Shown: positions 1,989-13,886 of the stretch, piece by piece | Numbering within the stretch: position 1 is the first letter of the stretch | Layout of the letters: the number at the start of each line of letters is the position of its first letter | DNA from: a virus | IMG/VR virus record: IMGVR_UViG_3300032087_004366 | Coordinates: 1 to 39,354 of that record | Length of the DNA stretch: 39,354 bases | Strand: one strand, 5' to 3' | Notes under the pieces: generated by a model | Told to the model about the DNA's origin: nothing | The model's database searches: none | What the model saw: the letters and a program-made list of their open reading frames with translations, nothing else | Translations under genes and position numbers: made by a program

Positions 1989-3138
1989 GCAGAATTGCAA
2001 AATACTCCCGTGCCTGAGCCTTAGTGGCATCACCCTCATAGTGCTTTGCAGTAGTAGCAGCAGTAGAGTGTCCAACCTGCTTACGCACATCGTCCTGAGT
2101 TAAGTATGGGGTAGCGTATGTGCCGTAGCTTTTACGAAGTATGCTGTTGGTCCTGCCAGTGTACCCAGAAGCTTTTATGGCTGCACGGAAGCGCTTGGCA
2201 AAATTGGTGAAGTTTAGCTCTCCACCATATTCGTCCTGCCACCACTCCATCCAAGTCCAAAAAGTTTCTGGCAGGTCACGGACTACCCTGCGTGTGTTCT
2301 GGTCTCCAGCAGAGTGCTTGGCAATTCGCACATGAATCTCTTTCAGTTCCCAATCAAGCTGGTCAAGCTGGAACACCTGAGTCTCCTCTGGACGTATGCC
2401 AGCAAACATACCCAAGATTAAAACTGGAATAAGCGCTGGGTCTTCAGCGCATGCATAATTCAGCAGCGCCTTAGCCTGTGGTACTGTTAGCCAGCGCTTC
2501 TTGAGCTTGGGTTCTGCTGGGAATGCATTGCCTTTGCGGTTGAGGAAATTCTCATTGCAATAGCGCTCCTCTACAGCCCAGTCCAAGAACTGTGAGATGA
2601 GTATGCGCTGACGTTTGACTGTGTGCCATGCTAGTCCCTGCTTCAATAGAGCAAGGTGATGATCTCGCAAATCTTTGCCAATGTTAGTAGCAGCATCAAG
2701 GTGGCCGAATTCTGCTATGAATCTAGCCTTACCAGGTTCGTGGCTGTCATAGGTAGACTGAGCCTTCCCCAGTTTCAGATACAGCTCCCAGTACTCCTCC
2801 ATGGCCTGACCATATGTAATACCTGCGACAACCTGCTTTCCACCCATTTCGATGTAGCCCTTGACTGCATCAACTAGGGACAGCCCTGCAGGCAGTATAG
2901 CTAAGGCAGTGTGAAACTGCTCCAGCTGGTCTGGGTTTAAGAATGCTTTGCTGTCACCGACTCTAGAGATTGCAGCGCCTGCGTCATCTATATAGCGCTG
3001 GGCATCTTCTCTGGTAGTAAACTGGTGCTTCTTGCGCTGACGTTTGCCGTCAGCCCCAGTTCTGTACTCATTGACCACATAGCGCTTGCCTGAGTGGTGC
3101 TGGTGGATTCCTATGTCGGAGAATTTAGTAGTAGTCAT
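1978..3138 (-). CDS. int: Tyrosine-family integrase
   Basis: 386 residues. It catalyses site-specific recombination between attP and the host attB. The N-terminal ~80 residues resemble an arm-binding domain (basic, KRYVVNEYRTG), followed by a SAM-like core-binding domain (about 107-200) and the catalytic domain. Catalytic residues are visible: R249 (AGIRPEE), K274 (RIAKHS), R335 (SILRKSY), H357 (VGHS) and nucleophile Y367 (KHYEGD). The usual first His of box II (HxxR) is Ser332 here. I have seen N/S-x-L-R in some integrases, so this does not by itself imply inactivity. The gene points away from the attP core at 3329-3378, about 190 bp upstream of its start. No Shine-Dalgarno sequence precedes the ATG. 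It may be read from its own promoter or from leftward transcription of the immunity region. Confidence 0.95.
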   Translation of the reverse strand: MTTTKFSDIGIHQHHSGKRYVVNEYRTGADGKRQRKKHQFTTREDAQRYIDDAGAAISRVGDSKAFLNPDQLEQFHTALAILPAGLSLVDAVKGYIEMGGKQVVAGITYGQAMEEYWELYLKLGKAQSTYDSHEPGKARFIAEFGHLDAATNIGKDLRDHHLALLKQGLAWHTVKRQRILISQFLDWAVEERYCNENFLNRKGNAFPAEPKLKKRWLTVPQAKALLNYACAEDPALIPVLILGMFAGIRPEETQVFQLDQLDWELKEIHVRIAKHSAGDQNTRRVVRDLPETFWTWMEWWQDEYGGELNFTNFAKRFRAAIKASGYTGRTNSILRKSYGTYATPYLTQDDVRKQVGHSTAATTAKHYEGDATKAQAREYFAILPSS

Positions 3139-3178
3139 TGGTCTTTTTTACTTTGCAGTTTTGTGGAACAGCAGTTGA

Positions 3179-3245
3179 GGGGACCAATATTGGACGGTCC
3201 CCGGGGACCAATCAAGCTTAAAAACGCCCCACTTTGCCCCACTTT
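3179..3245. promoter_or_regulatory. Palindromes and direct repeats upstream of int (arm sites or operators)
   Basis: This stretch holds a dense set of symmetric elements. GGGGACCAAT occurs at 3179-3188 and again at 3203-3212. GGTCCCCGGGGACC at 3196-3209 is a perfect 14-bp palindrome. CCAATATTGG at 3184-3193 is a perfect 10-bp palindrome. GCCCCACTTT is repeated head to tail at 3226-3235 and 3236-3245. The position between the integrase start and the attP core fits arm-type integrase/excisionase sites or an int operator. Which one cannot be told from sequence alone. Confidence 0.6.
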
Positions 3246-3273
3246 AGTGTCATAAGGGAATTGGCCAAAAGAA

Positions 3274-3313
3274 AGAGCCACCCCAGTGCTGGAGTGGCTC
3301 TTGTTTGTTTATT
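3274..3313. terminator. Hairpin terminator beside attP
   Basis: An 11-bp stem with one mismatch (GAGCCACCCCA paired with TGGAGTGGCTC) and a very short loop, flanked on both sides by A/T-rich runs, so it could work in either direction. It lies between the attP core and int. It could stop host tRNA-Phe transcription after integration, or limit leftward read-through from the immunity operon into int. Confidence 0.6.
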
Positions 3314-3328
3314 TATGCGGTTTAAAGC

Positions 3329-3378
3329 TGGTGGCGAGACCCGGATTCGAACCGGGGACACATGGATTTTCAGTCCAC
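3329..3378 (-). other. attP core: 3' half of tRNA-Phe (GAA)
   Basis: Read on the minus strand this is the 3' half of a tRNA: anticodon stem and loop with CTGAAAA (anticodon GAA, Phe), variable loop, T-arm CCCGG-TTCGAAT-CCGGG (plus-strand 3340-3356), acceptor strand TCTCGCC, discriminator A and an encoded CCA at 3329-3331. Sequence 5' of the anticodon stem does not fold as D-arm or acceptor, so it is not a complete tRNA gene. A 3' tRNA half next to a tyrosine integrase is the classic attP core: integration rebuilds the host tRNA-Phe. Exact core limits need the host sequence. Confidence 0.88.
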
Positions 3379-3484
3379 TTTAATCGACACCATTACTCCA
3401 ATAGAATAGTCAGGAGACAGTCTGGGGACTGCATGACTAGGGTAATCTCTTTTTCATGGAGTGCAGAAACTACCCTATAAATGG
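3379..3484. other. Non-coding attP right arm
   Basis: No gene is seen between the tRNA fragment and the end of the leftward operon. The only structure I see is a 7-bp inverted repeat, TAGGGTA at 3438-3444 and TACCCTA at 3471-3477, 26 bp apart, with a T-rich tract between. It could be a weak terminator for the leftward operon or a binding site in the right arm of attP. Confidence 0.35.
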
Positions 3485-3979
3485 TCAACTAGTAGATATG
3501 TAGGTCAGTCCTTTTTCCATATAGTACTGATCCTGACCTTGTATCTTGTAGGTCCAGCCTTTTTCACCTCTAGCACTTTTCAAGATGACTCCCTGCATCT
3601 TGTTCTTATTAACCATGACAGTCATGCCTGGGCTAAACTTAGGAGGCATGGAAGCATCGAGCATGTTTTGTATGGCTGCTGTGTCTGCTGGCAACTGTAG
3701 CATTCGATTGCATATCCATGAAGCCATGATGATACATACAATGCAACTCAGCCCAAGAAATACTCCCAAGCTAATCCAGTACTTTTTTTCTCTCTCAGCT
3801 GCACAAACAAGTCGGTGAATTTGGTGTATTTCCTGACCATTGATACGCATCTCTGCAATATCCTCACCATCAGGGATGTTAAAATCAATAATGTCCCTGC
3901 TTTTAGTTTGAATCTGCACACTGGTGGGCATGCAGTTTGCGTTAGGTTCGTTTGTTACTTTTTTACTTTTACGGGTCAT
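3485..3979 (-). CDS. Single-pass membrane protein in the immunity operon
   Basis: 164 residues. A basic, polar N-terminal region of about 65 residues is followed by one strong transmembrane segment (about 68-92, YWISLGVFLGLSCIVCIIMA) and a C-terminal part of about 60 residues. That part looks like a small beta-barrel: FSPGMTVMVNKNK, then alternating strands with Gly turns and the YKIQGQDQYY segment. The start overlaps the stop of the RHH gene (CTATGA), so the two are translationally coupled. I do not recognise a named family. Being expressed with a putative repressor suggests a prophage-stage function such as superinfection exclusion, but this is inference only. Confidence 0.7.
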   Translation of the reverse strand: MTRKSKKVTNEPNANCMPTSVQIQTKSRDIIDFNIPDGEDIAEMRINGQEIHQIHRLVCAAEREKKYWISLGVFLGLSCIVCIIMASWICNRMLQLPADTAAIQNMLDASMPPKFSPGMTVMVNKNKMQGVILKSARGEKGWTYKIQGQDQYYMEKGLTYISTS

Positions 3980-8995: not shown

Positions 8996-9787
8996 ATGAA
9001 AATAAAAATACAAACAATCACTCCAGAAAAAGCTAAAGCTCTACTCAGTAAAAATATCCGCAACAGAACTGTCAGGAATTCGCATGTTAATGATCTGGCT
9101 CATGCCATGAAGTCAGGCCACTGGAGTGTGAATGGTGACTCTATTCGCCTCAATGGGGATAATCTTGTTGATGGACAGCATCGACTACTGGCATGCATCA
9201 AGAGCAAGACTCCATTCCAGACGCTGGTAATTAGTGATCTAGATTTCAGTACATTCCATACTATCGATCAGGGCTTGAAGAGATCACACGCTGATACTCT
9301 ACATGTCAGAGGTGAAGACAGCCCATTGATGCTAGGTGCTGCATTGGTGCTAGTGCATAAATATCAGATGCAGAAGACTGGAGGTTATAAAATCTCCAAC
9401 ACAGAGCTGCCTGAGCTACTTGAGAAGCACCATGCTCTCCGTGAGTCAGTACAGTACCTAAACAACTTTCGGAAGATGTTCATACCCCACTCCATACTGA
9501 TTGCTGGTCACTACATGTTTGCTAAGAACAACAGAGCAACAGCTGATGAATTTATAGAGCAGGTATGCACAGGTGTGGGACTACAGCACAGAGACCCTGC
9601 ACTGGTCCTCCGTGAACGCATAATGTCTGAGCGGAGCAGAAGTGGCACAGCATCATGCCTGCCTAGGGTTTACACCTTGGTGCTACTGGTCAAAGCATGG
9701 AATGCATACGTAGATGGTCGAAAGATAGCATCACTGCGCTGGAGGACGGCAAAGAACAGCACAGAACTGTTCCCGAAGGTAAAATAA
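8996..9787 (+). CDS. ParB-like (ParB/Srx fold) phage protein
   Basis: 263 residues with a clear ribosome site (AAGGAAG) upstream of ATG 8996. The N-terminal ~100 residues carry the ParB-N fold signature: HVNDLAHAMKSGHW, then GDNLVDGQHRLLACI with DGQHR at 59-63. In ParB and related enzymes this motif binds CTP, ATP or a nucleic acid. Many phages encode such proteins and their functions differ (DNA binding, nuclease, kinase-like). The C-terminal ~140 residues are helical and unassigned. No ParA partner is present, so plasmid-type partitioning is not suggested. Confidence 0.75.
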   Translation: MKIKIQTITPEKAKALLSKNIRNRTVRNSHVNDLAHAMKSGHWSVNGDSIRLNGDNLVDGQHRLLACIKSKTPFQTLVISDLDFSTFHTIDQGLKRSHADTLHVRGEDSPLMLGAALVLVHKYQMQKTGGYKISNTELPELLEKHHALRESVQYLNNFRKMFIPHSILIAGHYMFAKNNRATADEFIEQVCTGVGLQHRDPALVLRERIMSERSRSGTASCLPRVYTLVLLVKAWNAYVDGRKIASLRWRTAKNSTELFPKVK

Positions 9788-10352: not shown

Positions 10353-10928
10353 ATGATTGAGCTGGGGGTTGACACTGCTACAGTTACTGCTACTACTACT
10401 GTAGCTGTTCCTGCTACTGCTCCTGCTACTGTAGCTGCTGCTGTACCTGCTACTGCTAGTGCTGCTACTGCTCCTGCTCCTGCTGCTGTACCTGCTGCTG
10501 TACCTGCTACTGTACCTGCTGCTGTACCTGCTGCTGTACCTGTTACTGCTCAGGGGCTGAAGAGGTCCATGAAACCGATTGGGACACTTTACCGGGAAGC
10601 GCAACGCACGCAGGCGCACACACGTAGCACCCTCGATGTAGTACTGTTTTGGTCTCCCCCTGGTCCCCCTGTTGCACAGGTTAGCTCCAGTACTACCAGG
10701 ACAGTGGATGATGCATCCATAGGGCCACCCCCTGCCACCCCAGAACAGCCCCTAGGGGGAGGGGGGGGTACTGGATCCGGCCAGCGACGATTCCTGCAAC
10801 CGATCCACCCACCAGCAGAAATTCCAGCAAAAGCTCCTGCACTTGTTTCTGCACCTGCACTTGTTCCTGCCCCTGCACTTGTTCCTGCCCCTGCCCCTGC
10901 ACCTGCACCTGCACCAGATGAAGGCTAG
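10353..10928 (+). CDS. Low-complexity Ala/Pro/Val/Thr reading frame of doubtful coding status
   Basis: 191 codons from ATG 10353. Residues ~8-66 are almost only Ala, Val, Pro and Thr, and the last ~30 are alternating Ala/Pro/Val. Both tracts are encoded by short DNA repeats. The middle (67-155) is Pro/Ser/Thr-rich with a GGGGG run and no recognisable domain. It fills an otherwise unoccupied gap between two good genes and overlaps the next one by 11 bp. That could mean a disordered linker-like protein or simply repeat DNA that stays open. All frames on both strands stay open across much of this segment, which weakens the case for coding. Confidence 0.35.
   Translation: MIELGVDTATVTATTTVAVPATAPATVAAAVPATASAATAPAPAAVPAAVPATVPAAVPAAVPVTAQGLKRSMKPIGTLYREAQRTQAHTRSTLDVVLFWSPPGPPVAQVSSSTTRTVDDASIGPPPATPEQPLGGGGGTGSGQRRFLQPIHPPAEIPAKAPALVSAPALVPAPALVPAPAPAPAPAPDEG
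10369..10552 (+). repeat. CTG/CCTGCT-type simple repeat tract
   Basis: About 180 bp of imperfect 3- to 15-bp repeats built from CTGCT, CTGTACCTG and ACTGCT on the plus strand, with very few G outside GCT/CTG. The last part repeats GCTGCTGTACCT several times. It is probably prone to slippage. A shorter tract of similar character lies at 8050-8075 behind the iterons. Confidence 0.8.
10836..10917 (+). repeat. CCTGCACTTGTT / CCTGCC simple repeat tract
   Basis: About 80 bp of 6-bp-based repeats (CCTGCA, CCTGCC, CTTGTT), nearly free of purines other than the G of CTG and the A of GCA. It ends directly before the ATG at 10918 of the next gene, so it forms the 5' untranslated leader or the overlapped 3' end of the previous frame. 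Confidence 0.8.
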
Positions 10929-11310
10929 TCTTATATATTTAGCAGGACCAATACATGGGCTGAGTGACCAGGACTGCAGGTACTGGAGGCAGAAGGCTAG
11001 TCAATTACTTCGTGCCAAGAGCATGATGACAATTAGCCCTATGTCGAATGATTGTCGAGGCAGGGAAGGCAGGTTTGTTCAGCAGTTGGTAAACCGGGAA
11101 AAGGTTTGGATTCAGCAGTGTGATACAGTACTGGCCAACTGCTGGACACCTTCCTATGGCACATCGATGGAGATTCTTTATGCATGGGAGCAGCACAAGC
11201 AGGTAGTGGTCATATCCCAGAGTAAGAATCCTTGGTTAATATGTCACAGTGACTTGATGGTTGATACTATTGAGGATGCGATTGATCAGTTGGAGTATAG
11301 GGGGGCATGA
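10918..11310 (+). CDS. Nucleoside 2-deoxyribosyltransferase-like protein
   Basis: 130 residues from ATG 10918. The frame is open upstream only through repeat DNA encoding Leu/His, so that extension is rejected. It starts LIYLAGPIHGLSDQDCRYWR, the nucleotide-binding N-terminus of the nucleoside 2-deoxyribosyltransferase / DUF4406 group, followed by QCDTVLANCW and YGTSMEILYAWE, which supplies the conserved G-T-x-x-E glutamate. Family members exchange or hydrolyse the N-glycosidic bond of deoxynucleosides. Next to QueD and a transglycosylase-like gene it may act on modified purine nucleosides; that is inference. It ends in an ATGA overlap with queD. Confidence 0.7.
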   Translation: MKASLIYLAGPIHGLSDQDCRYWRQKASQLLRAKSMMTISPMSNDCRGREGRFVQQLVNREKVWIQQCDTVLANCWTPSYGTSMEILYAWEQHKQVVVISQSKNPWLICHSDLMVDTIEDAIDQLEYRGA

Positions 11311-11744
11311 ATATAGATCCTAAGAGGAAGGTGCAGCCGCATCTTGGTATTTTTTCAGCTGGTAGGGTGTGGAAGACCTTCAAGTTCTGTGCAGCTCATA
11401 ATCTCACAGGGTTAGAAGATGGGCATAAGTGCATGGGGGTGCATGGGCATAATTATAGGTTAACAGTTTTTTGCTGTGGGACTTTTAACACGGAGAGTGG
11501 CAAGAATGGAATGGTAGTAGATTTTGCCCGGATCAAGGAGGTAGTGCAGCCAGTGGTGGATATGTTGGACCACAAGAACCTTAATGAGTATGTTGAGCAG
11601 CCCACTACAGAGAATGTGGCTCAGTGGTTGTATTTTCTATTCAAGGAGCATCTACCAAAGCTTGAATACGTTGAGTTGCAGGAGACGGATACTTGTGGCG
11701 CTCAATTTCCAGCATTTAGGGAGTATAGGAGTCACTCTAAATGA
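11307..11744 (+). CDS. queD: QueD, 6-carboxytetrahydropterin synthase
   Basis: 145 residues. QueD converts 7,8-dihydroneopterin triphosphate into 6-carboxytetrahydropterin, the second step towards preQ0 and other 7-deazaguanines. Zinc ligands are present as H31 (CAAHNLTG) and H46/H48 in KCMGVHGHNY. C42 is in the catalytic position, LDHKNLNE supplies H89, QPTTENVAQ is the typical PTxEN segment, and E126 lies in ELQET. Length fits the bacterial enzyme. QueC, QueE and GTP cyclohydrolase genes are not in the window, so other steps would have to come from the host. It is coupled to both neighbours by ATGA overlaps. Confidence 0.88.
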   Translation: MNIDPKRKVQPHLGIFSAGRVWKTFKFCAAHNLTGLEDGHKCMGVHGHNYRLTVFCCGTFNTESGKNGMVVDFARIKEVVQPVVDMLDHKNLNEYVEQPTTENVAQWLYFLFKEHLPKLEYVELQETDTCGAQFPAFREYRSHSK

Positions 11745-12460
11745 TTCACTACCATGGGATGGCCGGGAAGGGGCATGATGAGGTGATTGCGTTGGCAGGG
11801 GGCAGGCATATTTTCATATCTTATGCCAGGCCAAACATTTTGGAGATGGCATCAAGTATCTGTAGCAGTTTTGCGCTAGATAATGGTGCTTTCAGTGCAT
11901 GGACCAAGGGCAAGGTCATAGATTATGATGGCTTTATTGATTTTACAGCTAGGTGGAGTCGGCATCCAGCATTTGATTGGGCTGTGATTCCAGATGTGAT
12001 AGATGGTGATGAGGTTGCAAATGATGATTTTCTGGCTCAATGGCCCAGACAACTCCCTGGAGTACCTGTGTGGCATTTGCATGAGAGTTTAAAGAGATTG
12101 CAGCGTTTAGCTGAGGAGTGGCCCAGGGTATGTCTAGGTAGTAGTGGGTTGTACAGTAAGCCTAATAGTAAAAGTTGGTGGGGTCGTATTAGTGAGGCCA
12201 TGGATGCTGTTTGTGTAGATGGGCAGCCTCTCTGCAAGTTGCATGGGTTGAGGATGCTTGATCCACGAATATTTACTAAGCTGCCACTTTCATCAGCTGA
12301 CAGCACCAATGCGGAACGAAATGCAGGAATAGACAAGAAGTGGGGTCCATATGCACCTCCTACTGTAGGTCAGAGGTCTGCAGTCATTGCTTGGCGAGTA
12401 GAGAATCAACAGTCAGCTGAGTTTTGGGATCAGCCGACTCAAATGGAATTAGCCTTATGA
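11741..12460 (+). CDS. TGT/DpdA-like 7-deazaguanine transglycosylase candidate
   Basis: 239 residues. Segments along the chain suggest the TIM-barrel tRNA-guanine transglycosylase superfamily in its phage DpdA-type form: LDNGAFSAW with D47 in the place of the substrate-recognising Asp, VIPDVIDG (82-89), PVWHLHES (109-116), LGSSG (132-136), KLHGLRML (166-173) and SSADSTN (184-190), where an Asp nucleophile is expected. DpdA enzymes swap guanine in DNA for preQ0-derived bases. QueD immediately upstream supports the assignment. It is shorter than canonical TGT (about 375 residues), lacks the Cys zinc site and may be tRNA- or DNA-specific; sequence alone does not decide. Confidence 0.65.
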   Translation: MIHYHGMAGKGHDEVIALAGGRHIFISYARPNILEMASSICSSFALDNGAFSAWTKGKVIDYDGFIDFTARWSRHPAFDWAVIPDVIDGDEVANDDFLAQWPRQLPGVPVWHLHESLKRLQRLAEEWPRVCLGSSGLYSKPNSKSWWGRISEAMDAVCVDGQPLCKLHGLRMLDPRIFTKLPLSSADSTNAERNAGIDKKWGPYAPPTVGQRSAVIAWRVENQQSAEFWDQPTQMELAL

Positions 12461-12846: not shown

Positions 12847-13886
12847 GTCATGTGGATACTACCAAAGCAGGTATTAAAGAGCTACGGCACTTATCATTGT
12901 GCAGTGGCTATGGAGGAATTGACCTTGGGTTGCGACGAGTTTTGCCAGCTTGCAGAACAGTCGCTTATGTCGAAATCGAAGCCTTCGCAATCTGGAACTT
13001 GGTGCAGAAGATGGAAAAAGGATACTTGGATGCAGCACCTGTCTGGACGAACCTTAAAACCATGCCATTGGCCCAGCTTCGGGAGGTATTGGGCAGAGAG
13101 TCAATAATTAGTGGTGGATTTCCATGTCAGCCATTTTCAGTAGCTGGGGCTAAAGCAGGAGATGAGGATCCCAGACATTTATTTCCATACATAGTAGATG
13201 CAGTTAGAACTATTCAGCCTCGATGGGTCTTCCTTGAAAACGTGGAAGGAATCATCTCAAGCAAGCTCAAGTCAGACAACTGGGCAGACCCAGCAGGGAC
13301 ACCAGTTTTGCTCCATGTCCTTAGAGAGTTGGAAAGGTTGGGTTACCGGGCAGAGGCAGGAGTATTCTCAGCGAGTGAAGTCGGTTTACCTCACCAGCGT
13401 AAACGAGTCTTTATCCTGGCCCACTCCAGCAGCGCACGAAGCAAGACTGGGTTACCAGGATCGGACCAGGGGCAAGAAAGGCACACAGAAGAGCTTAACG
13501 ACTATCGTGATAGATCAGCAGCACCAGCAAGACCAGGACAGCAGCAGTACCCATGGGAGCCACCCAGAGTCATTCTGGGCAACTCCGACACAGGACGGCA
13601 ATTACAACAGGAAGGGGATCAGCCAGAAGGCAGGGGATGGGATAGCCACACAGGTTCAGAAGGAAGATACTTTAGTGGGGCAAGCGACCAAGCAGTTAAG
13701 CCTAGGAACTTTATCACCCAGATGGACAGAAGCTTTAATGGGGCTACCGATTGGCTGGACTATGCCCAGCTGTGCAGCTCCGTGGATAATAGAACTGACG
13801 AGCTGCGACTCCTCGGCAACGGAGTGGTCCCTGCAACAGCTGCCAAAGCATTCACAACCCTTTACGAAAGAATAATCAATGGATAG
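12840..13886 (+). CDS. dcm: DNA cytosine-C5 methyltransferase
   Basis: 348 residues from GTG 12840; GTG 12843, which overlaps the previous stop as GTGA, is an equally good start. It transfers a methyl group from S-adenosylmethionine to C5 of cytosine. Motif I is SLCSGYGGIDLG (19-30), motif IV GGFPCQPFS with catalytic C96, motif VI LENVEG (132-137), motif VIII LPHQRKRVF (183-191), and motif X LGNGVVPATAAKAF close to the C-terminus. Between VIII and X the target-recognition region is hydrophilic and low in structure (about 195-310). The same DNA carries a second, family-like reading frame (13198-13875). Likely role: protection from host restriction. Confidence 0.93.
   Translation: MVSHVDTTKAGIKELRHLSLCSGYGGIDLGLRRVLPACRTVAYVEIEAFAIWNLVQKMEKGYLDAAPVWTNLKTMPLAQLREVLGRESIISGGFPCQPFSVAGAKAGDEDPRHLFPYIVDAVRTIQPRWVFLENVEGIISSKLKSDNWADPAGTPVLLHVLRELERLGYRAEAGVFSASEVGLPHQRKRVFILAHSSSARSKTGLPGSDQGQERHTEELNDYRDRSAAPARPGQQQYPWEPPRVILGNSDTGRQLQQEGDQPEGRGWDSHTGSEGRYFSGASDQAVKPRNFITQMDRSFNGATDWLDYAQLCSSVDNRTDELRLLGNGVVPATAAKAFTTLYERIING
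13198..13875 (+). CDS. Out-of-frame gene nested in dcm (WPTP...LMGLPIGWT family)
   Basis: 225 codons, +1 frame relative to dcm, entirely inside it. The product begins MQLELFSLDGSSLKTWKESS, continues SLESWKGWVTGQRQEYSQR and SLSWPTPAAHEARLG (71-85), repeats the pattern as FWATPTQDGNYNRKG (126-140) and ends with SPRWTEALMGLPIGWTMPS (173-191). WPTP...NYNRKG and the closing LxPRWxExLMGxPxGWT are what I know from a widespread group of uncharacterised phage proteins linked to C5 methyltransferases. Finding that pattern in an alternative frame while dcm keeps motif X argues for dual coding. Function unknown; expression is not shown and no ribosome site is visible. Confidence 0.65.
   Translation: MQLELFSLDGSSLKTWKESSQASSSQTTGQTQQGHQFCSMSLESWKGWVTGQRQEYSQRVKSVYLTSVNESLSWPTPAAHEARLGYQDRTRGKKGTQKSLTTIVIDQQHQQDQDSSSTHGSHPESFWATPTQDGNYNRKGISQKAGDGIATQVQKEDTLVGQATKQLSLGTLSPRWTEALMGLPIGWTMPSCAAPWIIELTSCDSSATEWSLQQLPKHSQPFTKE

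Follow-up and report, generated by a model that had tools for sequence, protein, structure and literature searches.

The cytosine methylase gene (dcm) of this virus probably encodes an obligate two-polypeptide m5C methyltransferase (estimated probability about 0.8), with a catalytic chain (alpha) in frame 0 and a second chain (beta) in the overlapping +1 frame that carries the target-recognition domain (TRD) and motif IX (Table 1). The window, meaning the whole stretch of DNA analysed, is an entire virus record of 39,354 bases that carries integrase, exonuclease, replication, packaging and head genes. The methylase gene lies directly 3' of genes for a 6-pyruvoyl-tetrahydropterin synthase and a queuine-transglycosylase-like protein, making a DNA-modification neighbourhood possible; by sequence resemblance, the upstream trio in Table 1 may serve 7-deazaguanine modification of DNA. 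Of the methylase neighbours tested in the window, none was recognised as a restriction enzyme. Elsewhere, at 8996-9787, the window encodes a protein of phrog_5931, a family without an assigned function, that has a weak, sub-threshold match to DndB.

Table 1. Features of the dual-frame methylase locus and its upstream genes (window positions).
Feature	Position	Strand	Remarks
ATGTG overlapping start	12850..12854	+	ATG 12850 opens +1a; GTG 12852 opens frame 0
Frame-0 ORF (alpha / dcm)	12852..13886	+	C5-methyltransferase catalytic core, motifs I-VIII and X
+1a ORF, 5' part of the +1 track	12850..13107	+	85 aa; stops in the motif IV region separate +1a from 13198
+1 ORF (beta), candidate target-recognition and motif IX polypeptide	13198..13875	+	ATG start, 225 aa, inside dcm
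Motif I (LSLCSGYGG)	12891..12917	+	Frame 0
Motif IV, catalytic PC (GGFPCQPFS)	13113..13139	+	Frame 0
ENV motif (VFLENVEG, frame 0, 13227-13250) overlapping +1 SLKTWKESS (13231-13257)	13227..13257	+	Both frames constrained in relatives
Motif VIII (QRKRVFIL)	13395..13418	+	Frame 0
+1 recognition cassettes: WPTP (13417-13428) and WATPTQDGNYNRKG (13576-13617)	13417..13617	+	Frame 0 there is a variable linker, predicted disordered
LSPRWTEALMGLPIGWT, assigned to C5-MTase motif IX	13711..13761	+	+1 frame
Motif X (DELRLLGNGVVP; LLGNGVVP at 13809-13832)	13797..13832	+	Frame 0
Nucleoside 2-deoxyribosyltransferase-like ORF, QueD-like 6-pyruvoyl-tetrahydropterin synthase and queuine tRNA-ribosyltransferase-like protein (phrog_887)	10843-12460		Directly upstream of the dual-frame methylase

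The out-of-frame ORF at 13198-13875 is most likely real and functional. The original prediction described a 225-codon, family-like +1 frame within dcm with WPTP, NYNRKG and LMGLPIGWT elements, and a dcm that keeps motifs VIII and X in its own frame; these features were all recovered. In 1000 synonymous shuffles of dcm, which left protein and codons unchanged, the longest +1 ORF averaged 90 codons and reached 225 or more with P = 0.001, and the MGxPxxW motif essentially never arose. The openness and motifs of the +1 frame are thus beyond what the frame-0 protein dictates, which supports the two-polypeptide reading. Searched separately, the translations matched different families: frame 0 matched PF00145 (1.9e-33, residues 16-224) and phrog_363 (6e-54), and the beta ORF matched phrog_1008 (4.4e-9, profile positions 70-279), as did all 43 of the 43 +1 proteins. 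The motif X end of frame 0 also matches phrog_1008 (profile positions 293-322), so that one known profile is split here across two frames. No match for the +1 family was obtained in Pfam, NCBIfam or PDB (weak zyg-11 hits were disregarded). In tblastn against named phages, the window +1 protein returned nothing at 1e-5; a more typical +1 sequence returned 104 records.

The +1 coding track is longer than the ORF originally described, with both +1a and beta conserved. +1a is conserved beyond the synonymous null in six relatives (z 4.3-7.6) and has no Pfam match; it may serve for docking or form a small subunit by itself. Relatives L004, L005 and L014 have an unbroken +1 frame. The GNYNRKG cassette recurs in distant phages, with a mean identity of 0.72 in +1 versus 0.39 in frame 0 (54 pairs). 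The closest relatives lack the part of beta that follows motif IX (13762-13875), which may be dispensable. The AlphaFold model of beta alone is of low confidence (pLDDT 58), with the exception of helices 42-66 and 174-181; it is too weak for a fold search and therefore leaves the TRD fold of beta unproven.

Frame 0 contains C5-cytosine methyltransferase motifs I, IV (PC), VI (ENV), VIII and X in order, together with the MTase fold, and falls short of a complete enzyme in having no TRD or motif IX of its own between VIII and X. Its mechanical ORF runs from GTG 12840, and GTG 12852 agrees with the starts of relatives L001 and L003. In the AlphaFold (AF2) model, the core is confident (residues 11-200, pLDDT mostly 85-96), as is the motif X helix (pLDDT about 95); residues 207-325, where the recognition domain should be, are disordered. 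Foldseek with this model returned M.HhaI and M.HaeIII at the top, and also DNMT1. The frame-0 profile matches M.HhaI over residues 13-177 only, and this confined match, along with the lack of a folded TRD in the alpha model, supports the two-polypeptide reading. Unlike the canonical single-chain enzymes M.HhaI and E. coli Dcm, frame 0 resembles M.HhaI over motifs I-VIII but is without TRD and motif IX.

Motif IX itself appears to reside in the +1 frame, with frame 0 lacking one, on the grounds of pattern, helix and profile position. No conserved copy was found in 29 aligned frame-0 proteins. The LSPRWTEALMGLPIGWT segment has E, M and W invariant across 43 +1 proteins and is a predicted helix (174-181, pLDDT about 80). 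The +1 profile matches the single-frame protein Graduation gp47 at the motif IX segment (17 bits) and matches Firecracker gp5 strongly (80.9 bits); it has no match to E. coli Dcm. By eye, the +1 LNPxWVEWLMGxPxGWT stands before the frame-0 GNGxVP much as, in E. coli Dcm, PRECARLMGFE stands before GNSVV, a pattern-based likeness to canonical enzymes.

The dual-frame layout is conserved within the clade of the window. In L001, dcm (2676-3854) and a +1 ORF (3001-3756; 41% identity to the window +1 protein) show the same overlap, and the same +1 motifs are found in L003-L006, L010, L011, L013 and Phage C75C1 (L014). These relatives are too diverged for substitution rates, and the dual-frame case here is one of similarity above a synonymous null; a whole-clade comparison of codon positions 1, 2 and 3 was saturated and was replaced by synonymous shuffling and neighbouring-gene controls. 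With both genes synonymously shuffled, the similarity of the window +1 protein to its relatives lies at z 4-16 above the null. For dcm pairs the +1 z values are 5-13, versus -1.2 to 2.4 for neighbouring genes of the same phages (32-55% amino-acid identity), which again favours a two-polypeptide enzyme. For A1, diversity was too great for a pattern scan. In the high-GC viral contigs L007-L012, the +1 frame is open over nearly the whole of dcm, with [LA]MGWP..W near the end, and the frame-0 motif X is GNGVCS rather than GNGVVP.

Dual-frame selection was measured directly in a sister family with a short dcm (about 240-300 aa), represented by Salmonella phage L019, in which at least 563 viral-contig relatives were counted for the dcm protein and at least 598 relatives for the +1 protein. 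Internal stops in homologues and constraint no greater than that of dcm had been named as evidence against the nested gene. The +1 frame has no internal stop in 76 of 77 diverged homologues, and constraint exceeds that expected from dcm alone; the proposed nested gene thus survives on both counts. MGxPxxW is present in 56 of the 77 versus 0.46 expected, and WPTP-type motifs number 86 versus 4.6 expected, totals that do not represent independent events, since the homologues are related. Substitutions were sorted by their effect in each frame. Among dcm pairs of 90-98.5% identity, dNN/dNS and dSN/dSS are 0.14 and 0.19 in +1 and 0.15 and 0.20 in frame 0, with codon position rates of 0.083/0.019/0.076. 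Flanking control genes, in contrast, are neutral in +1 (0.82 and 1.03) and constrained in frame 0 (0.12 and 0.15), with rates of 0.073/0.053/0.265. A megablast of E. coli genomes yielded too few alleles.

A regional map of dN/dS-like ratios (157 sequences; 46 independent pairs, each sequence used once, with bootstrap), with which a second regional analysis agrees, indicates that the roles of the frames alternate along the gene. Both frames are constrained in the ENV-VIII region (+1 0.28, frame 0 0.15) and in IX..X (0.10 and 0.13). The values for I-III are 0.42 and 0.15, and in the motif IV region constraint is almost solely in the dcm frame (+1 0.69 [0.55-0.85], frame 0 0.14). Between VIII and IX, +1 is constrained (0.23 [0.17-0.29]) while frame 0 is neutral (0.89 [0.78-1.06]), indicating that in the recognition region +1 codes for protein and frame 0 is effectively neutral. 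Mutual constraint over ~680 bp, as originally envisaged, therefore holds around ENV-VIII and IX..X and gives way in VIII..IX, where +1 is constrained alone. This neutrality in relatives, together with the unfolded region in the window model, suggests that dcm is without a recognition domain of its own. Two-frame selection against the flanking controls and the regional map are further grounds for the two-polypeptide reading, as is the obligate pairing of the frames: at loci found via the +1 protein, dcm is open in frame -1 at 72 of 73 recognisable viral loci and is in frame -1 at 71 of 74 loci in bacterial genomes, and no stand-alone +1 gene was recognised among them.

Under the proposed mechanism, frame 0 would yield alpha, comprising the AdoMet-binding and catalytic core (I-VIII) and motif X, with a non-conserved linker in place of the TRD. 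The +1 frame would yield beta, comprising motif IX and, ahead of it, modular WPTP-type recognition cassettes, and its upstream segments would probably serve in docking on alpha. We infer that the two chains assemble in trans, beta bringing sequence specificity and the motif IX helix. Both frames probably initiate at one ribosome-binding site, through AUGUG in the window and AUGAAUGAG in the large sister family. AUGUG sites in E. coli can initiate both frames (PMC9841429). The ATGTGGATACTACC start context is common to the window, L001 and L003. In the sister family the +1 ATG is mostly 4 nt past the dcm start (ATGAATGAG or GTGAATGAG), and these paired starts mostly lie behind a single Shine-Dalgarno. 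The +1 track of the window is broken around motif IV, and translation of beta probably begins anew at ATG 13198, ahead of which no Shine-Dalgarno is apparent.

It is improbable that dcm is instead self-sufficient and the +1 protein a dual-coded partner that regulates it as inhibitor, activator or chaperone. DNA recognition by beta is itself deduced, beta alone is not confidently folded by AlphaFold, and +1 segments beyond the TRD (I-III and ENV-VIII) are also under selection, all of which a regulator would accommodate. However, a self-sufficient dcm is difficult to reconcile with the neutrality of VIII..IX in relatives and its lack of fold in the window model, with a frame 0 that has no motif IX, and with related enzymes in which either a single chain holds a +1-type segment between VIII and X or a second gene carries TRD, IX and X. 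Of the partner roles first suggested, specificity is thus favoured, together with supply of the missing motif IX, and inhibitor or activator functions less so. The likelihood is lower still that programmed frameshifting, into +1 past motif VIII and out again ahead of motif X, yields a single polypeptide. The functional modules do swap frames in just that order, but two shifts in opposite directions would be required, +1 is already under constraint before the point where a shift would be useful (ENV-VIII, I-III), and separate +1 start sites exist. In addition, the short family keeps +1 open through motif IV despite near neutrality there, and frame 0 is open across VIII..X at 72 of 73 loci, versus about 13% by chance if +1 alone coded VIII..IX; because the set behind this estimate had been picked for an open frame 0, its count of zero frame-0 stops is biased, and 72/73 is the unbiased figure. 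The double frameshift was rejected.

The two remaining explanations carry very little weight. One holds that the open +1 frame is a functionless by-product of dcm sequence and codon usage. Long +1 ORFs in the high-GC relatives L007-L012 are indeed partly compositional, the synonymous nulls there already reaching 160-200 codons, but synonymous-shuffle nulls and two-frame selection exclude this explanation in the tested families and refute it computationally for the family. The other, scarcely credible to the same degree, is that constraint at the DNA or RNA level (structure or regulatory sites) mimics +1 coding; against it, the VIII..IX rates at the three codon positions (0.415/0.176/0.18) are in step with +1 codon degeneracy, and the distant cassettes are more alike as amino acids in +1 than in frame 0.

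A two-polypeptide enzyme would be of a kind already known through the bacterial enzyme M.EcoHK31I, the nearest example, which the original prediction did not name, and by analogy the phage arrangement would work like it. M.EcoHK31I, which recognises YGGCCR (Lee, Kam and Shaw, NAR 1995 23:103), and M.AquI, which recognises CYCGRG, are both two-part m5C methyltransferases. The small polypeptide of M.EcoHK31I is reportedly read in an alternative frame inside the large one's gene; the window's small polypeptide would likewise lie in another frame inside the gene of the large one. In M.EcoHK31I, motifs I-VIII and X are in the large polypeptide and motif IX is in the small one (PMC3404938), a precedent that supports the two-polypeptide reading and a division repeated here on pattern, helix and profile evidence. 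The TRD of M.EcoHK31I is predicted in the large subunit (PMC3404938), a literature prediction rather than a defining property, whereas the recognition region of the window falls in +1, its frame-0 counterpart being neutral in relatives and disordered in the model. Also unlike M.EcoHK31I, the window holds a phage gene with no recognised restriction enzyme alongside, and its +1 track is in two ORFs with an AUGUG start. The two polypeptides of M.AquI divide a TRD/IX side from a catalytic side (PMC3404938). M.AquI beta holds motif X too, while motif X of the window is in alpha, placing the locus outside the M.AquI type; nearly all of beta, moreover, lies inside the gene of alpha. A hidden HNH endonuclease encoded by an out-of-frame ORF has been described in mycobacteriophage methylases, as in ShiLan (PMC11855218). 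That case is a homing insertion, whereas in the window nothing is inserted and the +1 frame runs through the conserved methylase. A hidden HNH homing element was rejected for the +1 proteins: searches of Pfam, PHROGs and NCBIfam gave them no HNH hit, and the +1 frame overlaps conserved methylase motifs.

Natural rearrangements of the same modules provide further support for a two-polypeptide enzyme. Mycobacterium phage Firecracker has a split C5 methylase (gp6/gp5; L024 1353-2298), in which gp6 stops after motif VIII and gp5, overlapping gp6, has the +1-type TRD, IX and X in one frame. This layout, with motif X in gp5, resembles M.AquI. Graduation gp47 is a single-frame form, which brings the layouts of these modules to three: dual-frame, split and single-frame. 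The phrog_1008 label 'DNA methyltransferase' (PHROGs) is silent on out-of-frame coding inside dcm, and its profile extends over motif X, a frame-0 element in the window. No description of a phage version of this arrangement was found in the literature searched, which covered few subscription papers. The novelty lies in how widely it occurs in phages, in the map of selection for each frame and in the evidence that recognition has moved into beta. The layout is present in hundreds of viral contigs and many bacterial genomes. There is a better than even chance that phage C5 methyltransferases of a very large group are obligate heterodimers, with the whole target-recognition module encoded in +1 within the gene of the catalytic subunit, as exchangeable WPTP cassettes, and with the catalytic frame a neutral linker there.

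If so, many phage cytosine methylases are annotated as single-chain enzymes while missing a specificity subunit, and an annotated ORF recoded for cloning would yield an inactive enzyme. Cassette swapping in one frame would let specificity evolve with the enzyme in the other frame untouched, which may explain the stability of so long a same-strand overlap. The +1 cassettes are candidate modular recognition parts, and their exchange in one frame makes it testable which protein chooses the target. The family also provides a large natural data set on two proteins sharing DNA. Long same-strand overlaps in double-stranded DNA phages are usually taken for annotation errors, and annotation of these loci is inconsistent. 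The +1 frame alone is called, as a hypothetical protein, in Synechococcus Ssp-JY39, Pseudomonas phPA-G and Shamal; in Paenibacillus Tadhana both frames are annotated as DNA methyltransferase. In the named phages L015, L020 and L026, annotators missed the methyltransferase in the other frame and called just the +1 frame as a hypothetical protein.
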